From Xestospongia bergquistia (Eukaryota > Porifera > Demospongiae > Haplosclerida > Petrosiidae), in NCBI GenBank assembly GCA_963965975.1, contig OZ014415.1, positions 253,001 to 317,000 of the forward strand: a DNA stretch of 64,000 nucleotides, read 5' to 3'. Below are positions 17,695-63,485 of the stretch, piece by piece. The translations under genes were made by a program, and so were the position numbers. Position 1 is the stretch's first letter. The number at the start of each line of letters is the position of its first letter. The notes beneath the pieces are model-generated. The model did not search any database. It was not told the DNA's origin and saw only the letters and a program-made list of their open reading frames with translations.

Positions 17695-20295
17695 TTAGTG
17701 GTTCTTTAGTTTAGCATAAATGTGACCTTCTTGAGTTAGTTCTTGATCAGTTATCTCATACAATGGTTCACTATAAACATAATATTATAATTTAAAATAT
17801 ATCTCCTTGTCCAGTATATTAGTAACTCACTGATCACTTGTTACTCTATAAGTTGAACTGGTTGTCATAGCGATATCTTCATGTGATGTTTTCATACTAC
17901 ATAAAACAAATCATTATAATAATCAATAAAGTTACTTTATCTAATAACATATATACCTTAATAACTGTATCTTATTATATTGTCTTATTACAACCATTAT
18001 TATAATAATAATAATAATAATAACTACTTGAATTAATAATATTGATGAACCAGTTATTATTATAATAGTAGAAGACAGAACATCAGTACTAGTGGGTATA
18101 GTAGTAGACCCTATAGATGAATGACATCATTATTACATAATACAATGACAATATAACATAATTAATAATAATATTATTAGTACTAGTAGATATAATATAA
18201 TCATTGTTAATAATATAAGTAATAATAGTTAGTGTTGTTAATGAAAATATACAAGTTGATTGTATTAATGATAACATAACCTGTTGATGTTGTAATAATA
18301 GATGTTGATGTTGATGATGATATAACTGTTGATGTTGGAGTTAAAGTGATTCCTATAATATATAATATAACACAATGTAATGTCACTATATCTTACTGGT
18401 AGATATTTGAGTATCACTCCATTCTCCTGGTCCTACACTGGTATATGCTCTCACTTCTCCTGTCTGTTGTATTACCTCACTACTTGCTGGTCCAGTTCCA
18501 GCATCATTATATGCTCTTACTGTCACAGTGTAGTTAGTGTAAGGTGTGAGTGTTGTGAGGGTGTATTGTCTGTTGTCTCCTCCAGTGATGTTAACAGTGT
18601 CACTGAATGTTGTGTTAGTGTAGTAGAGCAAGTAACCAGTGATGGGTCCATTCTGTCCAGAGCAAGGTACCTCATCCCATGATATAGTCATGGACCTTGC
18701 CTCAACTGATGATATAATGATATTACTGACAGATGAAGTGGGTGCTGTAGATAATGTAAGAACAATATAATAATTGTGAATATGATAATATAACATAGTT
18801 TACCAGATGAGAGTGTAGTGGTATTATCAGTACCCAGGACTATAGTGTCATTACCATATATTCCATTAAGACCAACAATACAGTAAGTACCAGGATCAAT
18901 ATCAGTAAATGTATATGGTGATGAGATTGAGGAATTTGTTTTGATAGGATCATACATCTTTTCACATAGTCTACGACATTGATGATAGCCCTCATATGTT
19001 TGAGGAACAAATGAAGCTTGTGTCCATATCATAGTAATAGTAGTATTAGTAGTAGTAAGTGTCAGAATAACTGAGGGTTTAACTGTAGAATAGAGTAGTC
19101 ACAATAAACAATAGATTATTCACTCACATAACGTCATAGTGGTTGCATTACTATGATCACTAGGTAGTACTGTACCACCCTCACTGCCATATGATACTAC
19201 AAAGAAGTTATATGTACTGTATGAAGTCAGTCCTGATGTTATATTCAACATTGTGTTATTGGTAGTTCCTGCACTCATAACAGAACTACTACCATTACTG
19301 AGTTGATAGAACACCTCATAACCAGCTACTCCTGACACAGATGACCAGGAAAGGTGTACATGAGCAAGACCTGTGTTCAGTCTTGTAGCAGTCAGACCAA
19401 TAGGAGTACCAGCAACTATAACAGAGAGAGAATATATATACTATCCTACTTAGTTATTTACTAACTTGTTATAGGTTGTGATGTACTACTAATACCTCTG
19501 GCATTGGAGACAGTACACTGGTAAGTACCAGCTTGTCTCATCCTCACTGTCACTGTCACCTGTGTAACAGATTTTGGTCCATTCACTACCACACGAGACA
19601 GATCACGACTAGCAATAGTGAATGGATTACTTCCATCAGTACAAGTGACATTAGTGGGAGGTCCATCAGAGACATTGAAGGTGAAAGTGAAGACTGGAGG
19701 GTTAGTATCTCTTGTCGAGATGAGAGAGAACTTCATGGAGGAGTCTGCATCAGGACCATCTATATAATAGTGAGATATATCATCACTTTATTACTACATG
19801 AACTCAGTCACTGACCATTGATATTAAAAACATGATTTGTGTATGCTCCTACCACTAGTGTTTGGTTCATTCCATTCTCATCAAGAATGATACAGGTGAA
19901 CAGACCTTCATAACCTGATATAGATGCTTTTTTAGCTAGTGCAATCTGACCTATGGACCTCTTAGACATTATTGGACTTGGTGTATAAAAAAACGCTACT
20001 TGAGTACCATTAGGATAATACCAAAGTCCAATATTAGAACCATTATTAGCACTCTGACACCACAAGGCATCATTAACACCAAAAAACTGTCCAGCATATA
20101 TCATTGAGAAGTCTGGTATTATCCCTATATTCCGATAAGCTAGATACAGTTGTACACCTGTTATTATGAAGTATATATTAATGATCACTCTAACAACAAC
20201 TACTTACCATTACTAGGTCTGTTGGTAGGTACTTGTCCATCTCCTAGTTGTACTAGTAGTAACATATAATACAATATCTTTACTAACTCCATCAT
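17695..20295 (-). CDS. Ig/FN3 tyrosine-tail receptor R1
   Basis: Predicted single-pass surface receptor of 668 aa. Exons: signal peptide 20208-20295 (MMELVKILYYMLLLVQLGDG), variable Ig 19816-20157 (Cys in LWCQSAN and YEGLFTC, core Trp in GLWYYPNG), second Ig 19466-19759 (NVTCTDG, AGTYQCTVSNA), FN3 19128-19415 (LSWSSVSGVAGYEVFYQL), Cys-bearing FN3-like 18804-19082 (HQCRRLCEK, GTYCIVGL), FN3 18397-18744 (SWDEVPCSGQNGPITGYLLY), Ser/Thr stalk 18281-18352, TM 17957-18110 (isoleucine-rich helix then RQYNKIQLLR), and tail exons 17831-17896 and 17695-17770. The FN3 exon is a hybrid: its end (VRAYTSVGPGEWSDTQISTS) belongs to the next FN3 of sister genes, so one domain was removed in frame. The tail has LYEITDQE and GHIYAKLKNH, the latter a YxxL motif that could bind SH2 domains. 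Ligand unknown. Confidence 0.8.
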
Positions 20296-20754
20296 TGTCT
20301 TTGACAGAGTTAGTACTGATGTAATGAACTATTAATAATAATAATAATATTTTTATTATTATTGTATCAACACTAACAAAGTTAGATAATCAATGTTGTT
20401 TTCATACTACATAAAACAATCTATTTTAATGATCAATAAAGTTAGTTTATCTAATGACATATCTACCTCACTGATATATACTTCAGTATAGTAATATATT
20501 TTTGTATTAAAGGAAAACTGTATTATATTATAAAATCAATAAATTGTTATAGTATATAATGATCCTTCAACTATTCTAAACTAGCTATATCATATCTAAT
20601 ATATCAGTATATCATAGACTGTTTATATGCTATTGTAATAAAGTATATTATAATATCATAATATATTATATACTAATTACTTCTGAAAATGAAATTAAAA
20701 TTCTATAGTCTATTATTTATAATTATAATTATTTAGTTTAGAATTATTTCTCTA

Positions 20755-21660: not shown

Positions 21661-24615
21661 TTAATGGTTCTTCAGTTTAGCATAAATGTGACCTTCTTGA
21701 GTTAGTTCTTGATCAGTTATCTCATACAATGGTTCACTATAAACATAATATTATATTTTAAAATATATCTCCTTGTGCAGTATTAGTAACTCACTGATCA
21801 TTAGTTACTCTATAAGTTGAACTGGTTGTCATAGTGATATCTTCATGTGATGTTTTCATACTATATAAAACAAATCATTATAATAATCAATAAAGTTACT
21901 TTATCTAATAACATATATACCTCAATAACTGTATCCTATTATATTGTCTTATTACAACCATTATAATAATAATAATAATAATAATAACTACTTGAATTAA
22001 TAATATTGATGAACCAGTTATTATTATAATAGTAGAAGACAGAACATCAGTACTAGTGGGTATAGTAGTAGACCCTATAGAAGAATGACATCATCATTAC
22101 ATAATACAATGACAATATAACATAATTAATAATAATATTATTAGTACTAGTAGATATAATATAATCATTGTTAATAATATAAGTAATAATAGTTAGTGTT
22201 GTTAATGAAAATATACAAGTTAATTGTATTAATAATAACATAACCTGTTGATGTTGTAATAATAGATGTTGTTGTTGTTAATATTGTTGATAATGATATA
22301 ACTGTTGATGTTGGAGTTAAAATCATTCCTATATCATATTTTTAATATAACAGAGATATGTAATGTCATTGCATCTTACTGGTAGATATTTGAGTATCAT
22401 TCCATTCTCCTGGTCCTACACTGGTATATGCTCTCACTCCAATGATATAGTTAGTGTTAGGTAGTAGTCCTCCTATACTGTATTGTGTGTTGGTTGTATT
22501 AGTCATATTGTATGGACCATTACTGTTAGACTCTCTATAACATATCTCATACATGATAATGACACCATTGGGTACTGTGGGTATATTCCATGTAATGTTG
22601 ATCACTTGTATTTCTATACCACTTTGTATTAGACCAGATACCACACCAGGTTCTACAATATATCAATAATACATTATATATCAGTAGTAACTGACTTACC
22701 AGCTTCTCCTGTCTGTTGTATTACCTCACTACTTGCTGGTCCAGTCCCAGCATCATTATATGCTATTACTGTCACAGTGTAGTTAGTGTAAGGTGTGAGT
22801 GTTGTGAGGTTGTACTGTCTGTTGTCTCCTCCAGTGATGTTAACAGTATCACTGAATGTTGTGTTAGTGTAGTAGAGCAAGTAACCAGTGATGGGTCCAT
22901 TCTGTCCAGAGCAAGGTACCTCATCCCATGATACAGTCATGGACGTTGCCTCAACTGATGATATAGTGATATTACTGACAGATGAATTGGGTGCTGTAGA
23001 TAATATGAGAACAATATAATAATTGTGAATATGATAATATAACATAGTTTACCAGATGAGAGTGTAGTGATATTTTCAACACCCAGGACTATAGTGTCAT
23101 TACCATATATGCCATTAAGACTTACAATACATTTACTACCAGGATCAATACCAGTAAATGTATATGGTGATGAGATTGATAAATTAGTATGTATAATAAG
23201 ACCTAAAGTCTGTTCACATAGTCTACGACATTGATGAAAACTGTCATAAGGATTTGCAAATGAAGGTGGTATCAACATTATTGCAATAGTGGTATTAGTG
23301 GCAGTGAGTCTCAGAGTAACTAAGGCTTTAGATGTAAAATAGATAGGTAGAGAGGTCACAATATTAAACAATAGATTTACTTACAGAATGTCACAGTGAC
23401 ATTATTACTATGATCACTAGGTAGTACTGTACTACCCTCACTGCCATATGATACTACAAAGAAGTTATATGTACTGTATGAAGTCAGTCCTGATGTTATA
23501 TTCAACATTGTGTTAGTGGTAACTCCTCCACTCATAACAGAACTACTACCATTACTGAGTTGATAGAACACCTCATAACCAGCTACTCCTGACACAGATG
23601 ACCAGGAGAGTTGTACATGAGTCAGACCTGTGTTCAGTCTTGTAGCAGCCAGACCAGTAGGAATACCAGCAACTGTAACAGAGGGATAATATGTATACCA
23701 TCCTACTCAGTGATTTACTCACCTGTTATAGACTGTGATGTACTACTACTACTTGTAGCACTTGGACCAGTTTCTCCTGGTACAGGACCATTAGTTACTC
23801 TGGCATTGGAGACAGTACAGTGGTAAGTACCAGCTTGTCTCATCCTCACTGTCACTGTCACCTGTGTAACAAATCCTGGTCCATTCACCACCACACGAGA
23901 CAGGTCCCCACTAGCAATGGTGAATGGGTTACTTCCATCTGTACAAGTGACATTAGTGGGAGGTCCATCAGAAACATTGAAGGTGAGAGTGAAGACTGGA
24001 GGATTAGCATCTCTTGTGGAGATAAGAGAGAACTTCATGAAGGAGTCTGCATCAGGACCATCTATATAATAGTGAGATATATCATCACTTTATGACTACA
24101 TGAACTCAATCACTGACCATTGCTACTATAAACATGATTTCTATATATTCCTACCACTAGTGTTTGGTTCATTCCATTCTCATCAGGAATGATACAGGTG
24201 AACAGACCTTCATAACTTGATAGTCCAGTTTTTCTATTTAGTGCAATCTGACCTGTGAACTTCTTAAAAAACAATGGACTTGGGGCATTAGTATGATTGT
24301 TTCCATTAAACAAAGGTACTTGATTACCATTAGGATAATACCAAAGTCCAATATCAGAACCACTATTAGCACTCTGACACCACAAGGCGTTTAAAAATTC
24401 ATTGAACTGTCCAGCATATATCATTGAGAAGTCTGGTATTATCCTATTCTGATAGGGTAGATACAGTTGTACACCTGTTATTATGAAGTATATATTAATG
24501 ATCACTCTAACAACAACTACTTACCATTACTAGGTCTGTTGGTAGGTTCTTGTCCATCTCCTAGTTGTACTAGTAGTAACATATAATACAATATCTTTAC
24601 TAACTCTATCATCAT
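21661..24615 (-). CDS. Ig/FN3 tyrosine-tail receptor R2
   Basis: Receptor with the same plan as R1 but with the full fourth FN3. Approximate exons: signal 24530-24615 (MMIELVKILYYMLLL), variable Ig 24110-24480, second Ig 23722-24060, FN3 23385-23672, Cys-bearing FN3-like 23050-23330, FN3 22700-22998, FN3 22378-22650 (WNIPTVPNGVIIMYEI), stalk 22246-22328, TM 21920-22080, tail 21793-21860 and 21661-21736. The second Ig carries an insert (VTNGPVPGETGPSATS) between the cysteine strand and its end that R1 lacks. The tail ends with YEITDQE and GHIYAKLKNH as in R1, so R1 and R2 share one tail type. All modules are open and splice signals are present. R1 and R2 are the closest pair in flanks as well. 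Confidence 0.78.
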
Positions 24616-26648: not shown

Positions 26649-27342
26649 AAGGGTCTAGTAAATATTTACTAGAACCCTTAACAATAATGTATACACAATA
26701 TCTAATATTGAGTATATAACATGAACTATTTATATAACACATGGACATGTTAAGTACTAGTATACAATATTTCTTCATTGGTTCAATTTTCAATTCTCAT
26801 AAATATAGCCATATTGAGAAGTGAGTTCAGTTGGTTCTTGATTAGTTTCCTCATACAATGTTTCTTCAAATTTACTATAAACATGATATTATAATTTAAA
26901 ATATGTCTCCTAGTAACTCACTTAGCACTTGTTACTCTATAAGCTGAACTGGTTGCCATAGCGATATCTTCATGTGATGTTTTCATACTATATAAAACAA
27001 ATCATTATAATAATCAATAAAGTTACTTTATCTAATAACATATATACCTTAATAACTGTATCTTATTATATAGTCTTATTACAATCAGTACTAGTATTAT
27101 AATAATAATACCAGTAATAACTAATAGTACTAGTAATATTGATGATACAATAATTAGTATATTAGTAGAAGACAGGTACTCAGTACTAGTGGTTGCCATA
27201 GTGATAATAGGAGTACACCCTATAGAAGAATGACATCATTATTACATAATACAATGACAATATAACATAATCAATAATATAGTACTAGTACATACATTAT
27301 AATCATTATATCTATATGTATTATATAATATGATGATTAGTT

Positions 27343-27955
27343 GGTGTCATGCCATTTCGTCTAATCCCATTTTGTCTAACAAATGGACTTTTGTCCCATT
27401 TAGTCTAATAGTGTCTAATAGTGTAAAAGGTCTAAGATAAGTGGATTAAGGCCAGTAAAGGAGATGTAATTCTAATTACAAAGAACTAATAGTGTAAAGG
27501 CTTTGATATCTTGAAAGGTAGAGTATTTCAAGAGGAGCCATTTCATACATACAACATATTGAATCAATGGAGTTTGTTACAACAACAAGAGGAGCTAGAT
27601 CACTTATACACCAGGGTTATAGGTACATACTCAATCGAGGAACCCCAGTTTTAGGAGTGGACTACAAGAACACAAGCTTTGACAGAAGTCAGTTTAATGC
27701 AACTGGCTGCAAGAGGGCTTTCAAGAAGAAGAAGAAAGTACAGAAACCATGAGAACAGACTGAAAACTATTAAGGAAAAGCATGAAGCAGGAGATTATAT
27801 ATTACAAAGAACTTCTTAGGGCATATAGCCATTGGGTATCTTTGAATTACTGTGATTGAAATCAATTTAGTTTTTAGACGAAATGGGACAATTGTACATT
27901 ATGGTAGACGAAATGGGATTAGACAAAACGGGATTAGACGAAATGGCTATAAACC
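27343..27955. mobile_element. MULE-like non-autonomous DNA transposon
   Basis: 613-bp element with terminal inverted repeats of about 26 bp. The left end is GGTGTCATGCCATTTCGTCT and the right end, complemented, is GGTTTATAGCCATTTCGTCT; inner copies of the ATTTCGTCTAATCCC motif follow at both ends. It is flanked by GATTAGTT at 27335-27342 and 27956-27963, an 8-bp target duplication in the MULE range of 8-11 bp. The empty site is recognisable in sister genes (near 30386 and 36143). Inside is a short frame at 27567-27752 with a FLYWCH-like start. FLYWCH domains occur in animal MULE proteins (family knowledge). Confidence 0.75.
27567..27752 (+). pseudogene. FLYWCH-like zinc-finger fragment
   Basis: Encodes EFVTTTRGARSLIHQGYRYI and then NRG, which fits the start of a FLYWCH domain (F..T..G...L...GY.Y...R). 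The usual YWRC and later Cys/His are degraded, and a Lys-rich end follows. Likely a relic of the element's protein. Confidence 0.5.
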
Positions 27956-29664
27956 GATTAGTTATAGTCATATATAAATATTATATGTTATGTTATAGAG
28001 ATATTTGTGACCAGATTTACAATTAATGTGCACTTCTATCAAAACATTAAAACACTTGAATGTAAGCAATTCTGTTTAAAAGGAAATTTTCATTCTTGTT
28101 TTAAACAATAGATATAATATAGTAAACATGCAGTGAAAAATGTGTTTGTGTACACAGGAACAAAAGTTTTTAAGATGTTTTAACAAAAGTGCTCCCTTTT
28201 TGCAAATCAGGTCACATTTGATCAATTTTAAAATCACTAGTAAATGTCAATAAATTGTTGAAATAGACTATTTACTTACATAATGTCACAGTGACATTGT
28301 TACTATGATCACTAAGTAGTATAGTACTACCCTCACTGCCATATGATACTACAAAGAAGTTACATGTACTGTATAAAGTCAGTCCTGATGTTATATTCAA
28401 CATTGTGTTAGTGGTAATTCCTGCACTCATAACAGAACTGCTACCATTACTGAGTTGATAGAACACCTCATAACCAGCTACTCCTGACACAGATGACCAG
28501 GAGAGTTGTACATGAGTCAGACCTGTCTTCAGTCTTGTAGCATTCAGACCAGTAGGAGTACCAGCAACTGTAACAGAGAGAGAATATGTATACCATCCTA
28601 CTCAGTGATTTACTAACCTGTTATAGGCTGTGATGTACTACTACTACTTGTAGCATTTGGACCAGTTTGATTAGTAATAGGACCATTAGTTACTCTAGCA
28701 TCGGAGACAGTACACTGGTAAGTACCAGCCTGTCCCATCCTCACTGTCACTGTCACCTGTGTAACAGATCCTGTTCCATTCACTAACGCACGAGACAGGT
28801 CACAGGATTAGCATCTCTTGTGGAGATGAAAGAGAACTTCATGGAGGAGTCTGCATCAGGACCATCTATATAATAGTGAGATATATCATCACTTTATTAC
28901 TACATGAACTCAGTCACTGACCATTGCTATTGTAAGCATAATTTCTGTATGCTCCTACCACTAGTGTTTGGTTCACTCCATTCTCATCATGAATAATACA
29001 GATGTACAGACCTTCATAACCTCCTATTCCAAGGTTTCTAGCTAGTGCAATCAGACCTGTGGACCTCTTAGAGAATATTGGTCTTGGTGAATTCTGAGCA
29101 TCAAATGCTCCAGTAAAAAAAGGTACTTGAGTACCATTAGGATAATACCACAGTCCAATATTAGAACTATTATTAGCACTCTGACACCATAAGGCATCAA
29201 TAAGACTATCATTATTCTTATCAACATCAAAAAACTATCCAGCATATATCATTGAGAAGTCTGGTATTATCCTATTCTCATAGGGTAGATACAGTTGTAC
29301 ACCTGTTATTATGAAGTATATATTAATGATCACTCTAACAACAACTACTTACCATTACTAGGTCTGTTGGTAGGTACTTGTCCATCTCCTAGTTGTACTA
29401 GTAGTAACATATAGTACAATATCTTTACTAACTCTTTAAATATTTTTACAATTACATTATAATAACTCAAACTGTTTAATAATAACAGTATAGTATCATA
29501 AATGTTAGTATGTTACTATGGTGATATCATATCAAGACTCTAGTGTTTTATTATTAACTAAACTGTTGTTTGTCTATTCCATATTTTCCTCATATTTATT
29601 ACAATTTCATTTAATTATAGATTTACTGGAACCTCCATTTTATTTGTAATTCTAAATATCACCT

Positions 29665-29735: not shown

Positions 29736-29847
29736 ACATATGCACAATGTCTAATATTGAGTATATGACATAAACTATTTACATAACACATGGACTTGTT
29801 AAGTACTAGTATACAATATTTCTTCATTGGTTCAATGCTCAATTCTC

Positions 29848-32750
29848 TAATAAGTATAGACTTGTTGAGAAGTGAGTTCAGTTGGTTCTTGATCAGTTAT
29901 CTCATACAATGTTTCTTCAAATTTACTATAAACATGATATTATAATTTAAAATATGTCTCCTAGTAACTCACTTAGCTCTTCTTTTTACAACACTATAAG
30001 CTGGACTGGTTGTCATAGCGATATCTTCATATGATGTTTTCATACTATATAAAACAAATCATTATAATAATCAATAAAGTTACTTTATCTAATAACATAT
30101 ATACCTTAATAACTGTATCTTATTATATTGTCTTATTACAATCAGTACTAGTATTATAATAATAATACCAGTAATAACTAATAGTACTAGTAATATTGAT
30201 GATACAATAATTAGTATATTAGTAGAAGACAGATACTCAGTACTAGTGGTTGTCATAGTGATAATAGGAGTAAACCCTATGGAAGAATGACATCATTATT
30301 ACATAATACAATATAACAAAACCAATAATACAGTACTATTACATATAATATAATCATTATATCTATATGTATTATATAATATGATCATTAGTTAGTGTTG
30401 TATATAAATATATAATCAATATAATAATATATTATATTACATGTAACAATACATGTACTATTGTTATATATACAATGATATCAATAGAATATATACTGAT
30501 ATATAGTTTAATAATATCATTATATTATTTTATTATATAGTTTACTTGTGTTTATTATTAATAATATAGTAATAATAGTTAGTGTTGTTAATGAAAATAT
30601 ACAAGTTGATTGTATTAATGATAACATAACCTGTTGATGTTGTAATAATAGATGTTGTTGATGTTAATATTGTTGATAATAAAGTAACTGTTGATGTTGG
30701 AGTACAAATGATTCCTATAATATATAATATAACACAATGTAATGTCACTGTATCTTACTGGTAGATATTTGAGTATCATTCCATTCTCCTGGTCCTACAC
30801 TGGTATATGCTCTCACTTCTTTTGTCTGTTGTATTACCTCACTACTTGCTGGTCCAGTCCCAGCATCATTATATGCTCTTACTGTCACAGTGTAGTTAGT
30901 GTAAGGTGTGAGTGTTGTGAGAGTGTATTGTCTGTTGTCTCCTCCAGTGATGTTAACAGTATCATAGAATGTTGTGTTAGTATAGTAGAGCAAGTAACCA
31001 GTGATGGGTCCATTCTGTCCAGAGCAAGGTACCTCATCCCATGATACAATCATGGATCTTGCCTGAACTGATGATATAATGATATTACTGACAGATGAAG
31101 TGGGTGCTGTAGATAATGTGAGAGCAATATAATAATTGTGAATATGAGAATATAACATAGTTTACCAGATGAGAGTGTAGTGGTATTTTCATTACCAAGG
31201 ACTATAGTGTCATTACCATATGTTCCATTAATACTAACAATACAGTAAGTACCAGGATCAATACCAGTAAATGTATATCGTGATGAGATTGATGAAACAG
31301 TGTGTATAGTAAGGTCTAAAGTCTGTTCACACTGTCTATGACATTGATGAAAACCTTTGTAAGTAGGAGGAGCAAATGAAGGTGGTAACCATGTCATAGT
31401 AATAGTAGTATTAGTGGTAGTATGTGTCAGAGTAACTGAGGGTTTAGCTATAGAATAGAGAGGTCACAATATTAAACAATAAACTATTTACTTACAGAAT
31501 GTCACAGTGACGTTGTTACTATGATTACTAGGTAGTACTGTACTACCCTCACTGCCATATGATACTAAAAAGAAGTTATATGTATTGCATAAAGTCAGTC
31601 CTGATGTTATATTCAACATTGTGTTAGTGGTAGTTCCTGCACTCATAACAGAACTACTACCACTACTGAGTTGATAGAACACGTCATAACCAGCTACTCC
31701 TGACACAGATGACCAGGAGAGTTGTACATGAGTCAGACCTGTGTTCAGTCTTGTAGCAGTCAAACCAGTAGGAGTACCAGCAACTGTAACAGAGAGAGAA
31801 TACATATACCATCCTATTCAGTGATTTATTAACCTGTTATAGGCTGTGATGTACTACTACTACTTGTAGCAATTGGACCATTTTGTCCAGGTATAGGACC
31901 ATTAGTTACTCTGGCATTGGAGACAGTACAGTGGTAAGTACCAGCTTGTCTCATCCTCACTGTCACTGTCACCTGTGTAACAGATCCTGGTCCATTCACT
32001 ACCACACGAGATAGATCACCACTAGCTATGGTGAATGGGTTACTTCCATCTGTACAAGTGACATTAGTGGGAGGTCCATCAGAGACATTGAAGGTGAGAG
32101 TGAAGACTGGAGGATTAGTATCTCTCGTGGAGATGAGAGAGAACTTCATGGAGGAGTCTGCATCAGGACCATCTATATAATAGTGAGATATATCATCACT
32201 TTATTACTATAACATGAACTTAGTCACTGACCATTGATATTGTAAGCAAAATTTGTGTATGCTCCTACCACTGGTGTTTGGACTCCATTCTCATCAGGAA
32301 TGATACAGGTGTACAGACCTTCATAACCTCCTATTCCAAGGTTTCTAGTTAGTGCAATCTGACCTGTGAACCTCTTAGAGAATATTGGACGTGGTGCATT
32401 AGTTTGAACAAAGTCTCCATCAAACAAAGGTACTTGATTACCATTAGGATAATACCACAGTCCAATATTACAACCATTATTAGCACTCTGACACCACAAG
32501 GCATCATTAGTACCATCATTATTCTGATCAATATTATAAAACTGTCCAGCATATATCATTGAGAAATCTGGTATTATCTTATTCTGATAGGGTAGATACA
32601 GTTGTACACCTGTTATTATGAAGTATATATTAATGATCACTCCAACAACAACTACTTACCATTACTAGGTCTGTTGGTAGGTACTTGTCCATCTCCTAGT
32701 TGTACTAGTAGTAATATATAACATAATATCTTTACTAACTCCATCATCAT
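29848..32750 (-). CDS. Ig/FN3 tyrosine-tail receptor R4
   Basis: Open receptor gene. Approximate exons: signal 32664-32750 (MMMELVKILCYILLL), variable Ig 32230-32608, second Ig 31834-32172, FN3 31497-31784, Cys-bearing FN3-like 31166-31450, FN3 hybrid 30757-31106, stalk 30632-30712, TM 30113-30272, tail about 29970-30046 and 29848-29923. As in R1, the FN3 exon ends with VRAYTSVGPGEW, so a domain is missing. The variable Ig has an insert DQNNDGTND before LWCQSAN and an additional Cys in ANNGCNIGLW. The tail reads KFEETLYEITDQEPTELTS then VYTY and stops early compared with sisters that continue to ERIE. An AT-rich 300-bp block separates stalk and TM exons. Confidence 0.75.
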
Positions 32751-43884: not shown

Positions 43885-45030
43885 TCAATGTTCAATTCTC
43901 TCATAAGTATAATATTGTTGAGAAGTGAGTTTAGTTGGTTCTTGATTAGTTTTCTCATACAATGTTTCTTCAAATTTACTATAAACATGATATTATAATT
44001 TAAAATATGTCTCCTAGTAACTCACTTAGCACTTGTTACTCTATAAGCTAAACTGGTTGCCATAGTGATATCTTCATATGATGTTTTCATACTATATAAA
44101 ACAAATCATTATAATAATCAATAAAGTTACTTTATCTAATAACATATATACCTTAATAACTGTATCTTATTATATTGTCTTATTACAATCAGTACTAGTA
44201 TTATAATAATAATACCAGTAATAACTAATAGTACTAGTGATATTGATGATACAATAATTAGTATATTAGTACAAGACAGGTGCTCAGTACTAGTGGTTGT
44301 CATAGTGATAATAGGAGTATATAAGAATGACATCATTATTACATAATACAATATAACATAATCAATAATATAGTACTAGTATATATAATATAATCATTAT
44401 ATCTATATGTATTATATAATATGATCATTAGTTAGTGTTGTATATAAATATATGATCAATATAATAATATATTATATTACATGTAACAATACATGTACTA
44501 TTGTTATATATACAATGATATTAATAGAATATATACTGATATATAGTTTAATAATATCATTATATTATTTTATTATATAGTTTACTTGTGTTTATTATTA
44601 ATAATATAGTAATAGTTTTGTTAATAAAAATATACAAGTTAATTGTATTAATGATAACATAACCTGTTGATGTTGTAATAATAGATGTTGTTGTTGATGA
44701 TGATATAACTGTTGATGTTGGAGTTAATATGACTCCTATAATATATATAACACTAGTACATATATATACAATGATATCAATAGAATATATACTGATATAT
44801 AGTTTAATAATATCATTATATTATTTTATTATATAGTTTACTTATGTTTATTATTAATAATATAGTAATAATAGTTAGTGTTGTTAATGAAAATATACAA
44901 GTTAATTGTATTAATAATAACATAACCTGTTGATGTTGTAATAATAGATGTTGATGTTGTTAATATTGTTGATGATAAAGTAATAGTTGATGATGACATA
45001 ACTGTTGATGTTGGAGTTAAAGTGTTTCCT
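43885..45030 (-). pseudogene. Receptor 3'-end fragment R6b
   Basis: Only the membrane end survives: last tail exon 43885-43975 (LYEKTNQEPTKLTSQQYYTY then ERIEH), first tail exon about 44030-44095, TM exon about 44150-44315, and two stalk exons near 44660-44735 and 44935-45028. The TM exon acceptor is damaged: CTATAG of sister genes is missing before TATACTCC. No ectodomain precedes it. It may be what remains of R6's original end, separated by rearrangement. Confidence 0.8.
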
Positions 45031-49300: not shown

Positions 49301-49963
49301 ACATTGAAGGTGAGAATGAAGACTGGAGGATTAGTATCTCTTGTGGAGACAAGAGAGAACTTCATGGAGGTGTCTGCATCAGGACCATCTATATAAGAGT
49401 GAGATATATCATCACTTTATTACTACATGAACTAAGTCATTCACCATTGATACTGTAAGCAGAATTTCCATATGCTCCTACCACTAGTGTTTGGTTCACT
49501 CCATTCTCATCAGGAATAATACAGGTGTACAGACCTTCATAACCTCCTATTCCAAGGTTTCTAGCTAGTGCAATCTGACCTGTGGACCTCTTAGAGAATA
49601 TTGGACTTGGTGCACCATTGTTAAAACCAAAGTTTCCATCAAACAAAGGTACTTGAGTACCATTAGGATAATACCATAGTCCAATATTAGAACCATTATT
49701 AGCACTTTGACACCACAAGGCATCATTAGTACCATCACTGTTCACATCAACATTATAAAACTGTCCAGCATATATCATTGAGAAGTCTGGTATTATCCTA
49801 TTTTCATAGGGTAGATACAGTTGTACACCTGTTATTATGAAGTATATATTAATGATCACTCTAACAACAACTACTTACCATTACTAGGTCTGTTGGTAGG
49901 TACTTGTCCATCTCCTAGTTGTACTAGTAGTAACACATAACACAATAACGCCTTTAACCACAT
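46382..49963 (-). CDS. Ig/FN3 tyrosine-tail receptor R7
   Basis: Open receptor with the full set of modules. Approximate exons: signal 49878-49963, variable Ig 49445-49830, second Ig 49050-49388, FN3 48710-48998, Cys-bearing FN3-like 48378-48660, FN3 48023-48320, FN3 47700-47978, FN3 47362-47640, stalk 47052-47150, TM about 46650-46815, tail about 46510-46580 and 46382-46467. The signal peptide starts MWLKALLCYVLLLVQLGDG, differing from the MMELVKILYYM type at its first residues only, and the 5' flank is also different. The variable Ig carries DVNSDGTND before LWCQSAN. The fourth FN3 differs at its start (ISVTWNIPTVPNG) and has its own intron end. The tail reads LYEITDEEPTELTSEQDYTY then EN. 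Confidence 0.8.
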
Positions 49964-50109: not shown

Positions 50110-50890
50110 TCTACTATTTGTATTATAAATGTAGGTACCAGTCTATCTCATTCTCACAATCACTGTCAGCTGTAACAAATCCTGGTCCATTCACTATTAC
50201 ATGAGACAGGTCACTACTAGCAATGGTAAATGGGTTACTTCCATCTGTACAAGTGACATCAGTGGGAGGTCCATCAGAGACATTGAAGGTGAGAATGAAG
50301 ACTGGAGGATTAGTATCTCTTGTGGAGATGAGAGAGAACTTCATGGAGGAGTCTGCATCAGGACCATCTATATAAGAGTGAGATATATCATCACTTTATT
50401 ACTACATGAACTCAGTCACTGACCATTGATATTGTAAGCATAATTTCTGTATGCTCCTACCACTAGTGTTTGGTTCACTCTATTCTCATCAGAAATAATA
50501 CAGGTGTACAAACCTTTTTAACCTGATAGTCCAAGATTTCTACCAAGTGCAATCTGACCTGTGAACCTCTTAGAGAATATTGGACTTGGTGCTGCACCAT
50601 CATCAAATGCTTTTATTAGAACCAACTCTGACACCACAAGGCATCATTATACCATCACTATTCACATCAACATTATAAAACTGTCCACCATATATCATTG
50701 AGAAATCTGGTATTATCTTATTCTCATAGGGTAGATACAGTTGTACACCTGTTATTATGAAGTATATATTAATGATCACTCTTACAACAACTACTTACCA
50801 TTACTAGGTCTGTTAGTAGGTAGTTTTCCATCTCCTAGTTGTACTAGTAGTAACATATAATACAATATCTTTACTAACTCTATCATCATC
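50110..50890 (-). pseudogene. Receptor 5'-end fragment R8
   Basis: Contains part of the second Ig (50123-50370), a deleted and frameshifted variable Ig (50430-50760) and a good signal exon (50800-50890, MMIELVKILYYMLLLVQLGD). Lesions: a stop in the GYEG motif (GGTTAA near 50521), loss of the GLWYYPNG core, and a single-base loss near 50648. The second Ig is cut at 50123 beside sequence shared with the R7 and R9 5' flanks. Confidence 0.85.
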
Positions 50891-53536: not shown

Positions 53537-53953
53537 TATCATCATATACATTATATATTATTACATACCCAGCATTATTACTAACAATAGTCAATTCATT
53601 AGTACCAGTCTTAATTAATGCATTTATTAAATTCTCTGGAATACCACACAACCCAAAACCTATAATAAAATCAATAACATTATTACATCATAATGATGTC
53701 ATCATTAATACATACCTCCTATGAGTAATTTTGATCCATTTTTAATATCTTTAACAGCATCTACAGAGCTATCATAAAACTCCACCCACTTTCCACTACT
53801 CAGGGATATACCACGACACTGCAATGGATAAAAGAGGACATTAACTAATACTACAATACTCACTTGAGATACTGATAGACTAGAAACTACTGATTTGAGA
53901 GTTTGTAAACGTGTTTGTAAGATACTACGAGATAGAGTAAACGTGAAAGCCAT
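51079..53953 (-). CDS. OXCT1: Succinyl-CoA:3-ketoacid CoA-transferase, mitochondrial
   Basis: Ketone-body enzyme that moves CoA from succinyl-CoA to acetoacetate in the mitochondrial matrix. Thirteen exons keep phase: 53864-53953, 53716-53818, 53569-53659, 53208-53493, 52970-53137, 52175-52282, 52013-52130, 51848-51942, 51672-51793, 51532-51607, 51398-51487, 51261-51341 and 51079-51210, about 519 aa. The N-terminus [20 protein letters not shown] is Arg/Ser-rich, fitting a transit peptide. CoA-transferase motifs are [13 protein letters not shown], then [16 protein letters not shown], and [17 protein letters not shown] followed by [15 protein letters not shown], whose Glu in SENG is the catalytic residue of the family. 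[15 protein letters not shown] and [13 protein letters not shown] follow. The C-terminus STGCTFEV then runs into AT-rich sequence. A GAG/GTAATA junction there may be the donor for a final exon that is no longer next to the gene. Confidence 0.93.
52490..52968. repeat. 24-26-bp minisatellite in OXCT1 intron
   Basis: About twenty units of ATTAATTACATTGTAGTACT plus AGTT, in intron 52283-52969. Variants with GTAGCACT cluster at the left end. Confidence 0.95.
53494..53534. repeat. (GA)n microsatellite in OXCT1 intron
   Basis: About eighteen GA units inside intron 53494-53568. They form the polypyrimidine tract for the leftward gene. Confidence 0.9.
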
Positions 53954-53998
53954 TGTTTACAAAGTGGTAGACACGCCCATCAATTAATTTCTGCAAAG
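53954..53998. promoter_or_regulatory. Putative bidirectional promoter OXCT1/TRAPPC13
   Basis: Only 45 bp separate the divergent start codons. No core motif is evident. A shared promoter is inferred from spacing. Confidence 0.45.
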
Positions 53999-54936: not shown

Positions 54937-57900
54937 TTAATGTTCAATTCTCTCATAAGTATAGTCTTGTTCAGAAGTGAGTTCAGTTGGTTCTTGATCA
55001 GTTATCTCATACAATGTTTCTTCAAATTTACTATAAACATGATATTATAATTTAAAATATGTCTCCTAGTAACTCACTTAGCACTTGTTTTTACAACACT
55101 ATAAGCTGGACTGGTTGTCATAGCAATATCTTCATGTGATGTCTTCATACTATATAAAACAAATCATTATAATAATCAATAAAGTTACTTTATCTAATAA
55201 AATATATACCTCAATAATTGTATCTTATTATATAGTTTTATATAATCAGTACTAGTATTATAATAATAATACCAGTAATAACTAATAGTACTAGTAATAT
55301 TGATGATACAATAATTAGTCCATTAGTAGAGGACTGGTACTCAGTACTCATGGTTGTCATAGTGATAATAGGAGTACACCCTATAGAAGAATGACATCAA
55401 TATTACATAATACAATGACAATATAACAATCAATAATATAATACTAGTATATATAATATAATTATTATATCATAATACATTATATAATTATATTAATATC
55501 CATAACGATACTATATGTAAATGAAATTAATCATTCAATCCCATCCTCAGATGGCAAATTGACGTGCATCCAGGACGCCCACATGCAGGCATTTCCGTGC
55601 CAAAGAACAATAGAGAGGCATTGAAAGAGATGATTGATTGAATGAGATGGTGGGAGATCCATACATTATGCTTGTTGTTTGCCAATCAGCCTGAGGGTAT
55701 TGATTGCTTCATCGCTCCATCCCCCCCAGTGACTCAACTACCAGAGGGACAAAGGAGACATCAGCAGCTAAACAGTTTTCCAGATGTATATGAAACTTTC
55801 TATCCTCTCCGACAGCGATCACATAACCAGGAGTAACAGAGGCAACTTGAATGGTAAGCTGCTGAAGAGGAGAGATAACAGTGACATCAAATGCAGTAGG
55901 TTTCCCCCGCTTCCAACAAGGGAAGAAGATATCAGCTGGACGATGATACTAGAGATGGAACCTCTTTCCTAGGAGCTAAAGCAGCTGATTGGGCAGCAGA
56001 AAAAATGGTATCTCTGAGGGAGTTATGTTGATGAATGAGGTCCCCATTGCCTCTACAACCAACTTGATGGTCACCAAAGCCATCAGTCACCACCTGACAA
56101 ACAGGGCAAGTCGACCCCTCCTGACACATTTGAACACCCAGCCAATACCATAAACACAATCCAAAATCACGATCTTGAATATGCAGACCAAGAGCCTTAG
56201 AAGGCACCACCTTCAGCCAATCTCCATCATGATGAACAGAAGATGACAAAGCCAAAGCCTTTGACCAAGTGTCTGGAGCTGTGTCAGTCAGGATATTAAA
56301 GGATGCCTGGTCAATAACTCTGGACAAATAGTGTTGACGGATGGAAGAGTCAATATTGTCCAAAGAGGACCACTCCGGTCTGTTAGATAATAACTCTAAC
56401 GTTGAGAAGAGATAGGGAGAAGATGGAGTGACACAGTTAAGAATTCCAATTATGAGATCAGTTGATTGAACCCAAGAGCTAACAAAAGCCGCTGGGGCAT
56501 GAAGAGATGCTTGATGAATACCAAAACCACCAAGTGAGATTGGTAAAGAAGCCTTCCACCAAGACCAATCAGACAAGAGAGCACCAACCAAATCAGATAC
56601 AGACTAGTACATGGAGATGTCAAAAGAGGAAATCACCTCCTTGATGTAACTTGGAGGACAAGTTCGTAGAGAAAAGGAAAATTTAGGGATGGAGAGACAT
56701 GAGCGCAGCTAAGCACATTCCATCATTATATCATTATATTATATAGTTTACTTGTATTTATTATTAATAATATAGTAATAATAGTTAGTATTGTTAATGA
56801 AAATATACAAGTTGATTGTATTAATGATAACATAACCTGTTGATGTCGTAATAATAGATGTTGATGTTGATGATGATATAACTGTTGATGTTGGAGTACA
56901 AATAACTCCAATAATATATAATAATGGGATAGTAATTTACAATATATAGTGTATTAATATTAATAAGATAAGTGGTAGTTAAGTGTTCTAGTTACTGGAC
57001 TAGTACTAATGCTAAGTAAAACTGAGTAGGAACATTTTTATGATGGGAGAGTGATACTAATGTTAAATTATATACTGGAGTGGACCCAATTCTACCACCT
57101 ACAATATTGTACAATGGACTCATAAAAGACACTTCTTACTCTCTAAAAATTAATAAATATCTTACCAGGTGAGATAAGTTGAGTTCTCTCTCCTTCATAA
57201 TCAACTCCATTTATTTCATATGTTACAGAAAGTGAGAACAAATAATCTAAGTTATCTTGTAGTCCTCCTATTACACCTTCACTACTACCAGCAGGAAAGG
57301 TCTTCTTACCCATATCAGACTGTCTCTTATGTTTACTAGTACTAATATAATAGACAGTATAGTGCTTGACTTCTTGAGCAGTAATAGGTTGCCACATAGC
57401 AAGTACTGCAGTGTTACTGATTTTTATTATATTAAAACCAGAAACTATAGCTATAGAGGAAAGGATAAATGTTATTGAAAAGACAAACAAGAGACCTACG
57501 TATGTTACTGGTAGAGATATAAATATCATTCCATTCTCCTGGTCCTACAATGGTATATGCTCTCACTCCAATGATATAGTTAGTGTTAGGTAGTAGTCCT
57601 CCTATACTGTATTGTGTCTTGGTTGTATTAGTCATATTGTATGGACCATTATTGTTAGACTCTCTATAACGTATCTCATATATGATAATGACAACATTGG
57701 GTACTGTGGGTATATTCCAAGTAATGTTGATCACTTGTATCTCTGTACCACTTTCTATTAGACCAGATACCACACCAGGTTCTATAGTATATCAATAATA
57801 CATTATATATCAGTAGTAACTGACTTACTAGCTTCTCTTGTCTGTTGTATTACCTCACTACTTGCTGGTCCAGTCCCAGCATCATTATATGCTCTTAATG

Positions 57901-60661
57901 TCACAGTGTAGTTAGTGTAAGGTGTGAGTGTTGTGAGAGTGTATTGTCTGTTGTCTCCTCCAGTGATGTTAATAGTGTCACTGAATGTTGTGTTAGTGTA
58001 GTAGAGCAAGTAACCAGTAATGGGTCCATTCTGTCCAGAAGAAGGTACTTCTTCCCATGATATAGTCATGGACCTTGCCTCAACTGATAATATAGTAATA
58101 CTACTGACAGATGAAGTGGGTGCTGTAGATAATGTGAGAATAATATAATAATTGTGAGTGTATTATAGTTTACCAGATGAGATTGTATTAATAATTCCTA
58201 AACCCATACTAGCTACCATACATTCCATTTAGACCAATAATACATTATATATCAGTAATAATTCACTTACCAGCTTCTCCTGTCTGTTGTATTACCTCAC
58301 TACTTGCTGGTCCAGTCCCGCCATCATTATATGCTCTTACTGTCACAGTGTAGTTAGTGTAAGGTGTGAGTGTTGTGAGAGTGTATTGTCTGTTGTCTCC
58401 TCCAGTGATGTTAACAGTGTCACTGAATGTTGTGTTAGTGTAGTAGAGCAAGTAACCAGTAATGGGTCCATTCTGTCCAGAAGAAGGTACCTCATCCCAT
58501 GATATAGTCATGGACCTTGCCTCAACTGATGATATAGTAATACTACTGACAGATGAAGTGGGTGCTGTAGATGTCAGAGTAATATAATAATTGTGAGTGT
58601 ATTATAGTTTACTAGATGAGATTGTATTAATAATTTCTAAACCCATACTAGCTGGTTCACTACCATATATTCCACTTAGACCAATAATACATTATATATC
58701 AGTAATATCAGTAATAATTCACTTGCCAGCTTCTCCTGTCTGTTGTATTACCTCACTACTTGCTGGTCCAGTCCCGCCATCATTATATGCTCTTACTGTC
58801 ACAGTGTAGTTAGTGTAAGGTGTGAGTGTTGTGAGAGTGTATTGTCTGTTGTCTCCTCCAGTGATATTAACAGTGTCACTGAATGTTATGTTAGTGTAGT
58901 AGAGCAAGTAACCAGTGATGGGTCCATTCTGTCCAGAGCAAGGTACCTCATCCCATGATATAGTCATGGACCTTGCTTCAACTGATGATATAATGACATT
59001 ACTGACAGATGAAGTGGGTGCTGTAGATAATGTGAGAATAATATAATAATTGTGAATATGATAATATAACATAGCTTACCAGATGAGAGTGTAGTGGTAA
59101 TTCCTAATCCCAGGCCAGCTGGTTCACTACCATATATTCCATAAAGACCAATAATACAGTAAGTACCAGGATCAATACCAGTAAATGTATATAGTGATAA
59201 GATTGATGAATTTGCTATGATAGGATCAAACTTCATTTCACATAGTCTTCGACAATGACGATAGCAGTCATATGTTTGAGGAGGAAATGAAGGTTGTATC
59301 CATATCATAGTAATAGCGATGTTAGTGGTAGTAAATGTCAGAATGAGAAAAGGGATAGCTAAAGATAAGGATAAGAGCAATAGTAGCTTTTGTTCAAAGA
59401 CAGAGCATTATATGATACTAAATAAAGTTTTATTTATTTATTTATTACTTACAAAATATCACAGTGATTGTGTTACTATGATTACTAGGTAGTACTGTAC
59501 TACCCTCACTGCCATATGATGCTACAAAGAAGTTATATGAGTTAATGAAGTTATTTGTTCTGTAAGTCAGTCCTGATGTTATATTCAACATTGTGTTAGT
59601 GGTAGTTCCTGCACTCATAACAGAACTACTACCACTACTGAGTTGATAGAACACCTCATAACCAGCTACTCCTGACACAGATGACCAGGAGAGTTGTACA
59701 TGAGCAAGACCTGTGTTCAGTCTTGTAGCAGTCAGACCAGTAGGAGTACCAGCAACTATAACAGAGAGAGAATATATATACCATCCTACTTAGTAATTAC
59801 TAACCTGTTATAGGCTGTGATGTACTACTACTACCTCTGGCATTGGAGACAGTACACTGGTAAGTACCAGCTTGTCTCATCCTCACTGTCACTGTCACCT
59901 GTGTAACAGATCCTGGTCCATTCACAACCACACGAACCAGGTCACTACTACCAATGGTAAAGGGATTATGTCCATCTGTACAAGTGACATCAGTGGGAGG
60001 TCCATCAGAGACATTTAAGATGAGAGTGAAGACTGGAGGATTAACATCTCTTGTGGAGATGAGAGAGAACTTCATGGATGAGTCTGCATCAGGACCATCT
60101 ATATAATAGTGAGATATGTCATCACTTTATGACTACATGAACTCAGTTACTGACCATTGTTATTGTAATTATGGGTTGTGTATATTCCTACCACTAGTGT
60201 TTGGTTCACTCCATTCTCATCAGGAATAATACAGGTGTACAGACCTTCATAACCTCCTATTCCAAGGTTTCTAGTTAGTGCAATCTGACCTGTGAACCTC
60301 TTAGAGAATATTGGACGTGGTGCATTAGTTTGAACAAAGTCTCCATCAAACAAAGGTACTTGATTACCATTAGGATAATACCACAGTCCAATATTACAAC
60401 CATTATTAGCACTCTGACACCACAAAGCATCAATAATGTTATCATGATTATTATCAAAAGCATAGAATTGTCCAGCATATATCATTGAGAAGTCTGGTAT
60501 TGTCCTATTCTCATAGGGTAGATACAATTGTACACCTGTTATTATGAAGTATATATTAATGATCACTCTAACAACAACTACTTACCATTACTAGGTCTGT
60601 TGGTAGGTACTTGTCCATCTCCTAGTTGTACTAGTAGTAACATACAAGACATTAACAACAT
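54937..60661 (-). CDS. Receptor R9: FN3-expanded, probably tail-less
   Basis: Receptor with all ectodomain exons open. Approximate exons: signal 60578-60661 (MLLMSCMLLLVQLGDG), variable Ig 60153-60537, second Ig 59804-60097, FN3 59455-59758, Cys-bearing FN3-like 59080-59358, then three copies of the SWDEVPCSGQNGPITG-type FN3 at 58725-59030, 58270-58570 and 57830-58125, FN3 57520-57785, FN3 57165-57450, stalk 56840-56905, TM about 55215-55378, and tail exons to 54937. The TM exon carries a 1-base loss after VLII, giving TAA right after the helix. A translated protein would keep a membrane anchor but lose the KFEETLYEITDQEP tail. A retroelement lies in the stalk-TM intron. Two FN3 copies have Ser in place of Cys in VPCSGQ, removing a cysteine. 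Confidence 0.65.
55530..56705 (-). mobile_element. Decayed retroelement pol fragment
   Basis: Inserted in the stalk-TM intron of R9; sister genes have continuous AT-rich sequence here. The main frame (55932-56591) ends in a Cys/His cluster: CPVCQVVTDGFGDHQVGC, then RHN-like GDLIHQHNSLRDTIF, and upstream LGGFGIHQASLHAPAAF. This pattern is typical of the C-terminal part of pol-like proteins of invertebrate retroelements (family knowledge, exact clade not assigned). The reading continues in another frame (RPADIFFPCWKRGKPTAFDV) after a frameshift near 55945, and a G-run near 55725 shifts it again. It is dead. No reverse transcriptase core is seen, so it is 5'-truncated. Confidence 0.7.
57830..59030 (-). 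repeat. Tandem triplication of one FN3 exon in R9
   Basis: Three FN3 exons of the same type at about 455-bp spacing. Between them are stubs of the Cys module (about 58160-58255 and 58605-58715: ACCCATACTAGCT, TCCATTTAGACCAATAATAC). The repeated unit was therefore the FN3 exon plus the end of the preceding Cys exon. Confidence 0.9.
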
Positions 60662-61519: not shown

Positions 61520-63485
61520 TTATTATAACACAGATAGGTAATGTCACTATTCTTACTGGTAGAGATTTGAGTATCACTCCATTCTCCTGGTCCTACGCTA
61601 GTATATGCTCTCACTCCAATGATATACTTAGTGTTAGGTAGTAGTCCTCCTATACTGTATTGTGTGTTGGTTGTATTAGTCAAATTGTATGGACCATTAC
61701 TGTTAGACTCTCTATAAAGTATCTCATAGATGATAATGACACCATTGGGTGCTGTGGGTATATTCCATGTAATGTTGATCACTTGTATCTCTATACCACT
61801 TTGTATTAGATCAGATACCATACCAGGTTCTACAGTATATTAATAATACATTATATATCAGTAGTAACTGACTTACTAGCTTCTCTTGTCTGTTGTATTA
61901 CCTCACTACTTGCTGGTCCAGTCCCAGCATCGTTATATGCTCTTAATGTCACAGTGTAGTTAGTGTAAGGTGTGAGTGTTGTGAGGTTGTACTGTCTGTT
62001 GTTTCCTCCAGTGATGTTAACAGTGTCACTGAATGTTGTGTTAGTGTAGTAGAGCAAGTAACCAGTGATGGGTCCATTCTGTCCAGAGCAAGGTACCTCA
62101 TCCCATGATATAGTCATGGATCTTGACTTAACTGATGATATAATGATTTTACTGACAGATGAAGTGGGTACTGTAGATAATGTGAGAACAATATAATAAT
62201 TGTGAAAGTGAGATATTGTGAATATAGTATAGTTTACCAGATGAGAGTGTAGTGGTAATACTAGAACCCAGGCCAACAGCTGGTTCACTACCATATATTC
62301 CATAAAGACCAACAATACAGTAAGTACCAGGATCAATACCAGTAAATATATATAATGTGATGAGATTATATGAAGTCAGTCCTGATGTTATATTCAACAT
62401 TGTGTTAGTGGTAGTTCCTGCACTCATAACAGAACTACTACCACTGCTGAGTTGATAGAACACCTCATAACCAGCTACTCCTGACACAGATGACCAGGAG
62501 AGTTGTACATGAGTCAGACCTGTGTTCAGTCTTGTAGCAGTCAGACCAGTAGGAGTACCAGCAACTATAACACAGAGAGAGAATATGTATACCATCCTAC
62601 TTAGTGATTAACTAACTTGTTATAGGCTGTGATGTACTACTACTACCTCTGGCATTGGAGACAGTACACTGGTAAGTACCAGCCTGTCTCATCCTCACTG
62701 TCACTGTCACCTGTGTAACAGATCCTGGTCCATTCACAACCACACGAACCAGGTCACTACTACCAATGGTAAAGGGATTACTTCCATCTGTACAAGTGAC
62801 ATTAGTGGGAGGTCCATCAGAGACATTGAAGATGAGAGTGAAGTCTGGAGGGTTAGTATCTCTTGTGGAGATGAGAGAGAACTTCATGGAGGAGTCTGCA
62901 TCAGGACCATCTATATAAGAATGAGATATATCGTCATTTTATTACTACATGAATTCAGTCACTGACCATTCATATTGTAATTATGAGTTGTGTATATTCC
63001 TACCACTAGTGTTTGGCTCACTCCATTCTCATCAGGAATGATACAAGTGTACAGACCTTCATAACCTGATATTCCAAGAATTCTAGCTAGTGCAATCTGA
63101 CCTGTGGACCTTTTAGAGAATATAGGAGATGGTCCACTGTCAAATGAGTCACTATGTAAAAGTACTTGAGTACCATTAGGATAATACCACAGTCCAATAT
63201 CAGAACCATTATTAGCACTCTGACACCACAAGGCATCATTAGTACCATCCTTATTCTCATCAAGAGCATAAAACTGTCCACCATATATCATTGAGAAGTC
63301 TGGTATTATCCTATTTTCATAGGGTAGATACAGTTGAACACCTGTTGTTATGAAGTATATATTAATGATCACTCTAACAACAACTACTTACCATTACTAG
63401 GTCTGTTGGTAGGTACTTTGTCCACCTCCTAGTTGTACTAGTTAGTAGTGACATATAATACAATATCTTTACTAACTCTATCATC
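61520..63485 (-). pseudogene. Broken receptor R10 (3'-truncated)
   Basis: Modules present: signal-like exon 63388-63482, variable Ig 62965-63342, second Ig 62616-62910, a fused FN3/Cys exon 62232-62566, FN3 61880-62178 and FN3 61553-61835. The fused exon joins the start of the first FN3 (GVAGYEVFYQL) to the end of the Cys module (GIDPGTYCIVGLYG) in frame. Lesions: the signal exon has gained 4 bases (ACTA) near 63437 and 1 base near 63417, which shifts frame. The stalk, TM and tail exons are absent, since sequence beyond 61520 is unrelated. Its variable Ig is open and distinctive (DENKDGTND). Confidence 0.8.

Follow-up and report, generated by a model that had tools for sequence, protein, structure and literature searches.

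What is a long tandem run of receptor-like genes doing in the genome of a sponge, and could it belong to a system that tells self from non-self? The locus that raises this question lies in a stretch of 64,000 nucleotides of Xestospongia bergquistia (hereafter the window; C5:253001-317000, C5 being contig OZ014415.1 of a 146-Mb assembly in 21 contigs) and encodes putative type I membrane receptors built of immunoglobulin (Ig) and fibronectin type III (FN3) modules with short, tyrosine-bearing tails. The original prediction, made from this sequence, had proposed an allorecognition or immune receptor complex. One assembly of the species was analysed, hence all differences between copies described below are differences between its paralogues. 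Our reading, to which we give a probability of roughly 0.6, is that the family is a large set of type I recognition receptors whose tips are shared by a tyrosine-tail class and a phosphatase class, following a paired logic. The original prediction is exceeded in two respects, the greater extent of the array and the presence of a phosphatase-tailed sister array with the same recognition domain, and what we find most interesting is that a receptor phosphatase has the same type of tip.

Joining the window to the neighbouring contig sequence revealed a single receptor array running from 17.7 kb to 148.3 kb in window coordinates (C5:270.7-401.4 kb, ~131 kb). The predicted array is thus real, but larger than noted and cut by the window edge. 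Its 22 receptor units share the minus strand; 10 of them lie inside the window (g12-g21), as expected from the predicted ten or more copies in one orientation, and 12 beyond it. Full-length ectodomain exons match the reference copy, g15, with E-values mostly of 1e-50 to 1e-150 and mostly 77-97% DNA identity. The reference gene is laid out as follows, in window coordinates:

46382..49963, minus strand: g15, reference intact gene, 889-aa type I membrane protein, AG/GT splices, one open frame
49963-49879, minus strand: signal peptide exon
49828-49445, minus strand: Ig1 exon
49388-49050, minus strand: Ig2 exon
48997-48710, minus strand: F1 exon
48657-48376, minus strand: F2 exon
48316-48023, minus strand: F3 exon
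47976-47695, minus strand: F4 exon
47645-47361, minus strand: F5 exon, with KRKRQS
47151-47050, minus strand: stalk exon
46813-46642, minus strand: transmembrane (TM) exon
46581-46510 and 46466-46382, minus strand: tail exons

The usual module order in the array is signal peptide, Ig1, Ig2, F1 to F5, a Ser/Thr stalk, a TM segment and two tail exons, the signal peptide, stalk and TM labels being readings of the sequence by eye and not the output of a predictor. An open gene model from signal peptide to tail stop was obtained for 11 of the 22 units and for 3 of the 10 in the window; the predicted anatomy therefore stands as the usual order, but not as a property of every copy. Stalk exons were omitted from these models, which leaves the frame unchanged provided that both their ends are in phase 1, as in g15, where every ectodomain intron is of phase 1. 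The intact models span 7 to 35 exons and their number of F3 exons goes from 0 (g7) to 25 (g10), the g10 model predicting a receptor of 3,205 residues. This g10 unit lies outside the window (C5:326.2-337.3 kb, i.e. 73.2-84.3 kb in window coordinates) and its 25 open F3 exons follow each other at a spacing of ~449 bp. Five of the ten window units are broken or truncated and an orphan 3' end lies among them, in agreement with the predicted admixture of pseudogenes, and the array as a whole is a tandem complex of same-orientation paralogues, intact and broken (22 units, 11 intact). Across the genome, Ig1 has 150 or more matches, clustered on C5, C8, C1 and C2 and isolated elsewhere; this is a lower bound, 150 of 193 candidates having been scored.

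The second array lies on the same chromosome, at C5:625-748 kb, and joins the same type of ectodomain to a cytoplasmic Ig domain and two tyrosine-phosphatase (PTP) domains; PTP matches lie along C5 from 625 to 766 kb, on its minus strand. Each of the ten full-length Ig1 matches with at least 70% identity between 629 and 746 kb is followed by a same-strand PTP match before the next Ig1, a count that leaves out two others, one incomplete (666 kb) and one of 51% identity (760 kb). Two of these ten genes were read in detail. Both start with a signal peptide, Ig1, Ig2 and F1, continue with a hydrophobic stretch read as TM and a region resembling the cytoplasmic I-set domain of the homologue P0014, and have two PTP regions, the first of which retains the WPD segment and, with an inferred splice, HCSAGVGRTG; one of them also has F2-F4, and F5 was found in neither. 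Among the matches listed of 194, no PTP domain falls in the window array, whose reference gene ends in a short tyrosine tail. Both classes, tyrosine-tail and phosphatase, are also seen among proteins of Amphimedon queenslandica. The position of an I-set type region on the cytoplasmic side, between TM and PTP (L029, L030 and P0014), seems unusual. By eye, a possible third tail class, with another TM and tail on the same type of ectodomain, is seen at C1:24.536 Mb (L028) and in P0019 and P0033.

A tree of Ig1 with 67 rows groups 25 A. queenslandica sequences in a single clade (100/100), leaving P0022 outside, and in it the phosphatase-linked and tail-linked Ig1 domains of X. bergquistia are interleaved. 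Indeed, a single phosphatase clade is rejected for X. bergquistia (approximately unbiased test, p-AU 0.0001), with at least 6 class changes among 19 tail-linked and 10 phosphatase-linked rows. Furthermore, the pair W10 and L038 shares 96.4% DNA identity in Ig1, against a mean of 82.0% (standard deviation 4.1) over the 210 pairs formed between 21 array units, broken as well as intact, and 10 phosphatase-linked genes, and 95.0% in Ig2, against a mean of 84.1% over the same pairs. Gene conversion and recent duplication with a change of tail would both fit this interleaving and these near-identical tips.

The Ig1 domain combines a near-invariant frame with four hypervariable blocks that carry insertions and deletions. 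The proportions of non-synonymous to synonymous differences (pN/pS), pooled over the open exons of the array, are 0.87 for Ig1 (19 exons), 0.49 for Ig2, 0.88 for F1, 1.02 for F2, 0.49 for F3 (53 exons), 0.80 for F4, 0.71 for F5 and 0.81 for TM. For the test, the columns of Ig1 were ranked by their entropy among 27 Ig1 domains of A. queenslandica, and the most variable quarter (30 of 122 columns) was compared with the rest. The rows were 19 of the 22 array Ig1 exons; open exons of otherwise broken units were retained, and those of g14, g16 and g19, which have stops or are truncated, were excluded. At the columns variable in A. queenslandica, pN/pS in X. bergquistia is 1.59 (bootstrap 1.13-2.48) vs 0.56 (0.36-0.87) at the rest, and column entropy correlates across the two species (rho 0.56, p 2.5e-11). 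Hypervariability of the outer domain is thus supported at positions chosen in another species; the variable Ig of the original prediction is confirmed in the sense of variation among gene copies, as distinct from variation among individuals. Blocks picked by eye gave 1.40 vs 0.52; since that choice is circular, we rely on the positions chosen in A. queenslandica. The pairwise homoplasy index (PHI) test for recombination gave p 0.001 for Ig1 and p 0.005 for F4, without signal in Ig2 (p 0.12), F1 (p 0.09) or F2 (p 0.77).

Concerning the identity of the domains, g15 reaches 134.8 bits for Pfam fn3 against a cut-off of 25, in 4 stretches, and the A. queenslandica homologue P0012 has FN3 structure matches. 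The several FN3 modules of the original prediction are therefore largely confirmed, F2 being FN3-like by size and place only, without a convincing Pfam match in the scan of the reference copy. In Ig1, C39, W51 and C102 are invariant and Y100 nearly so in two alignments, which is the Cys/Trp/Y-x-C pattern of the Ig fold. A profile search of Ig1 against the PDB returned only three matches, JAML, NCAM and an antibody (Fab) heavy chain, all Ig-type by name and weak (E 0.62-0.86). Ig2 of g15 has Ig matches below the Pfam cut-off only; the homologue P0022 passes the Ig_2 cut-off, its best stretch (residues 197-265) corresponding to its Ig2 by reading of the sequence. AlphaFold2 places Ig1 and most of Ig2 of P0012 below 50 on its confidence scale (predicted local distance difference test, pLDDT), and the VIA-align rows for P0012 cover mainly the FN3 part (residues 265-740) and are uninformative on Ig1.

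The intracellular side was examined on 19 tails, some from broken units and one from the orphan 3' end. Tail tyrosines occur in the contexts YNKI, SPAYSVV, LYEIT and YTYE, and all 19 tails have a Yxx[ILV] motif and an LYE- or LYV-type tyrosine, which bears out the predicted cluster of type I receptors with tyrosine tails. Three immunoreceptor tyrosine-based motifs are the activation motif ITAM (YxxI/L-x6-12-YxxI/L), the inhibition motif ITIM ([ILVS]xYxx[ILV]) and the switch motif ITSM (TxYxx[VI]). TSYEDI, present in 5 of 19 tails, fits an ITSM and, with the upstream YNKI, ITAM spacing; the ITIM pattern occurs in 1 of 19 tails and is not a general feature, and hemITAM was found in none of the 19. 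An ITAM was considered as a rule for the family and rejected: g15 has YEDI-x7-YSVI and YNKI-x8-YEDI, yet in 14 of 19 tails a His stands in place of the middle tyrosine, so that most copies do not fit an ITAM-type reading. A DI-x-M-x-x-SPAY motif recurs among the A. queenslandica relatives.

Since the receptors have no kinase domain, signalling would need SH2 partners, as had been anticipated, and the genome encodes candidates for this role among its 81 SH2 matches. Tandem SH2-SH2-PTP genes form a cluster of single open frames at C3:1265-1284 kb (L021-L023; five open, one interrupted, one PTP-only fragment), the Pfam scan having covered one gene of this cluster and a gene on C7. SH2 tyrosine-kinase genes are clustered at C6:1622-1697 kb (L024, L025), where the two ends were read and one gene was Pfam-scanned, and a gene at C5:8.49 Mb has two SH2 exons and kinase exons; by its motifs, we take the latter to resemble Syk. 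At least three A. queenslandica proteins have SH2 and PTP domains together among 120 listed of 1,318 matches, so that this species, too, seems to have more than one gene of this kind.

Together, these elements suggest the following mechanism. Ig1, with its four variable blocks, would be the ligand-binding tip, held away from the membrane by Ig2, a variable number of FN3 modules and the Ser/Thr stalk. The SPAY and LYE tyrosines of the short tail would be substrates of a tyrosine kinase and, once phosphorylated, docking sites for SH2 proteins, for instance the tandem-SH2 phosphatases encoded in this genome. In the sister array, a recognition tip of the same kind would sit on a receptor tyrosine phosphatase, and similar specificities could thus be read by phosphate-accepting and by phosphate-removing receptors, whose antagonism, as a balance, would set the outcome of cell contact. 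A recognition role of the array appears likely on these grounds, a system of the paired type being the most likely form of it, and a role in allorecognition is plausible. It is tempting to go further and to see a haplosclerid paired system, in which one hypervariable Ig tip, repeated exchange between arrays, docking-site and phosphatase receptors and expanded tandem-SH2 phosphatases would make up the receptor arm of self/non-self recognition, thereby extending to sponges the tyrosine-motif logic of cnidarians and tunicates; we hold this extension as tentative and would sooner doubt it than adopt it.

Several results weigh against the paired recognition reading. The Ig1 fold is unconfirmed, with no Pfam Ig match found and an AlphaFold2 pLDDT of 38, and the average pN/pS of Ig1 (0.87) is not exceptional, F2 being higher and F1 equal. 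The two tail exons have pN/pS of 1.43 and 1.08 (24 and 28 codons), i.e. purifying selection among copies is not seen, and they therefore lend no support to constraint among young copies. The recombination signal is not confined to Ig1, given that of F4, and recombination inside Ig1 weakens all Ig1 trees; the tree itself has few columns, 28 of its 64 inner branches are unresolved and its bootstrap is unsettled. For A. queenslandica, 18 labelled rows (5 phosphatase, 13 tail; P0022 excluded) give 5 class changes, and the test does not reject one clade of phosphatases (p-AU 0.096). Finally, functional pairing between the two arrays is something that we infer, and what X. bergquistia contributes is genome sequence only, from one assembly.

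Among the alternatives, the strongest is that these are immune or symbiont receptors, the tip binding microbial surfaces instead of conspecific cells and the copies diversifying against microbes. Copy number, paralogue diversification, pseudogenes and ectodomain length variation fit immune repertoires as well as they fit allorecognition; the pairing of tyrosine tails and phosphatases on one ectodomain type fits cell-contact sensing, though immune receptors do likewise. We regard this as a possible explanation, to be taken seriously without being favoured.

A second alternative, which we consider rather unlikely, is that adhesion molecules of the LAR-phosphatase type have multiplied in tandem, their variation being drift and gene conversion without any recognition role. 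When the ectodomain was compared with 114 solved sequences, the FN3 repeats of PTPRF were indeed the best match (E 1e-23, query residues 468-727, i.e. F3-F5), followed by PTPRD, contactin-2, Dscam and others, FN3 repeats being common in general, and the pN/pS of F2 and of the tail exons, near or above 1, suggests weak overall constraint. However, relaxation by itself does not account for an Ig1 domain whose frame hardly varies while its blocks, at positions chosen in A. queenslandica, have pN/pS above 1. The likeness to LAR-type (R2A) receptors (PTPRF, PTPRD, PTPRS) extends to the order of Ig before FN3 in the ectodomain and, in the sister array, to two PTP regions, present in both genes read. 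The F5 site is KRKRQS in g15 (window 47361-47645), KHKRQS in other copies and RKKRQ in A. queenslandica; we take KRKRQS, in the membrane-proximal FN3 module, to be a furin-like basic site, and LAR receptors are cleaved by furin at a basic site in the same place. Unlike LAR-type receptors, the window copies have a short tyrosine tail and not a phosphatase, Ig1 is hypervariable, the genes stand in large arrays and the phosphatase class of the sponge family has a cytoplasmic I-set domain. Apart from this alternative, it is reasonable to propose that the array derives from a LAR-like receptor phosphatase that would have lost the enzyme and gained a tyrosine tail. Lastly, the array could be a graveyard of decaying genes of which only one or two still work. 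This would account for the 11 of 22 units that are not intact under the strict model, but it is very improbable given 11 units open over 7 to 35 exons, one of them with 25 open F3 exons, the related proteins of A. queenslandica and the 868-residue open frame of P0006.

Returning to the paired recognition reading, the closest protein homologues of the array are from A. queenslandica (44-60% identity), together with the JGI protein P0006 (57%). Set beside the 77-97% DNA identity within the array, this range marks the array's species as related to A. queenslandica but distinct from it. Ig1 alone matches 33 proteins, 32 of A. queenslandica plus P0006, in a word-based search (shared 5-residue words) from which distant relatives may escape. 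On a contig of 3,059 bases, P0006 reads without interruption from inside the signal peptide as far as the tail, and this suggests that a homologue has a spliced transcript. Judging from these matches, the family has so far been seen only in sponges of the Amphimedon kind. In PMC4704026, haplosclerids are described as having many Ig and FN3 domains, enriched in A. queenslandica, and the A. queenslandica receptor phosphatase described in PMC5336234 is of another subtype, R3, with FN3 only. No description of this receptor family was found in the titles, abstracts and passages of the open-licence literature.

The Alr genes of Hydractinia, which the original prediction had put forward for comparison, are similarly single-pass IgSF genes clustered with pseudogenes (PMC11067881) and have ITAM/ITIM motifs in their tails (PMC12065747); membership of that family is nonetheless not borne out by the word-based search, from which distant relatives may escape and in which none of the 33 Ig1-matching proteins is named as cnidarian. 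The sponge array also differs in having FN3 modules. According to PMC12065747, candidate allorecognition receptors of cnidarians and tunicates carry ITIM, ITAM or hemITAM. The fester co-receptors (FcoR) of Botryllus, type I proteins of a histocompatibility locus with a variable-type Ig and ITIM/hemITAM tails (PMC12065747), are alike in build, but belong to another phylum and differ in that the Pfam scan of g15 gave no sushi match and hemITAM occurs in 0 of 19 sponge tails.

Vertebrate paired receptors (KIR, SIRP and SLAM families) set one type of recognition domain on tails of opposite sign. The sponge arrays likewise use one recognition domain type, with the difference that in one of the two classes the receptor would itself be the phosphatase. 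Among sponges, the adhesion molecules of Geodia cydonium have Ig-like domains and the aggregation factor is an extracellular proteoglycan complex. Both concern sponge adhesion and recognition and are likened here by description, the aggregation factor being, unlike the array products, no receptor; PMC11999971 refers to this factor and to one adhesion molecule of Geodia, written GSMS there.

Sponges are remarkably specific in telling their own grafts from foreign ones (PMC5450542), and PMC12065747 speaks of a complete mystery as to how allorecognition works in invertebrates and describes candidate proteins as not conserved between sponges, cnidarians and ascidians. The family described here is a concrete set of variable sponge receptors with relatives in A. 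queenslandica, and thus a testable candidate for cell recognition; if the tip shared by a phospho-acceptor tail and a phosphatase is functional, this would be unusually direct paired signalling. A. queenslandica is the species of published autograft and allograft transcriptomes (PMC5450542). The terms 'immunoglobulin', 'fibronectin', 'phosphatase' and 'receptor' are absent from the main text of that paper (supplements lay outside this term search), so the receptors could be examined in existing graft data.

The remaining features of the window, besides the intact g15, are two further intact models (g17, g18), two units open as far as the first tail exon (g20, g21) and the broken or truncated units, with one tRNA gene:

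61548..63465, minus strand: g12, truncated; signal peptide remnant, Ig1, Ig2, partial F1, F3, F4; TM and tail not found
54937..60661, minus strand: g13, broken; three F3 exons, TM exon damaged
50131..50886, minus strand: g14, fragment; signal peptide, broken Ig1, partial Ig2
43892..44322, minus strand: orphan 3' end (44.3-43.9 kb); exons for TM and tail, no ectodomain attached
40808..43212, minus strand: g16, broken; stops in Ig1 and F2, F5 truncated, signal peptide not found
35086..39379, minus strand: g17, intact model with short Ig1 loops
29847..32744, minus strand: g18, intact shorter model; F5 not found
26790..29431, minus strand: g19, broken; Ig1 with a stop, gapped Ig2, F1, TM, tail
21697..24612, minus strand: g20, open from signal peptide to first tail exon, variant TM and tail
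17731..20292, minus strand: g21, open from signal peptide as far as the first tail exon; TM and tail of variant type, a hybrid exon of F3 and F4
12796-12867, minus strand: tRNA-Cys (gca)

In g17, the full second tail exon is preceded by six incomplete repeats of its beginning, at intervals of 83 bp (window 35232-35685). An F3 exon is joined in frame to the end of F4, most of F4 being lost, in both g18 (30748-31161) and g21 (18389-18799). Between F5 and TM of the broken g13 lies an open frame of 223 codons (55935-56603), by eye possibly belonging to a mobile element. Within the array, open frames at window 53175-53956 resemble, by eye, a succinyl-CoA:3-ketoacid CoA transferase.

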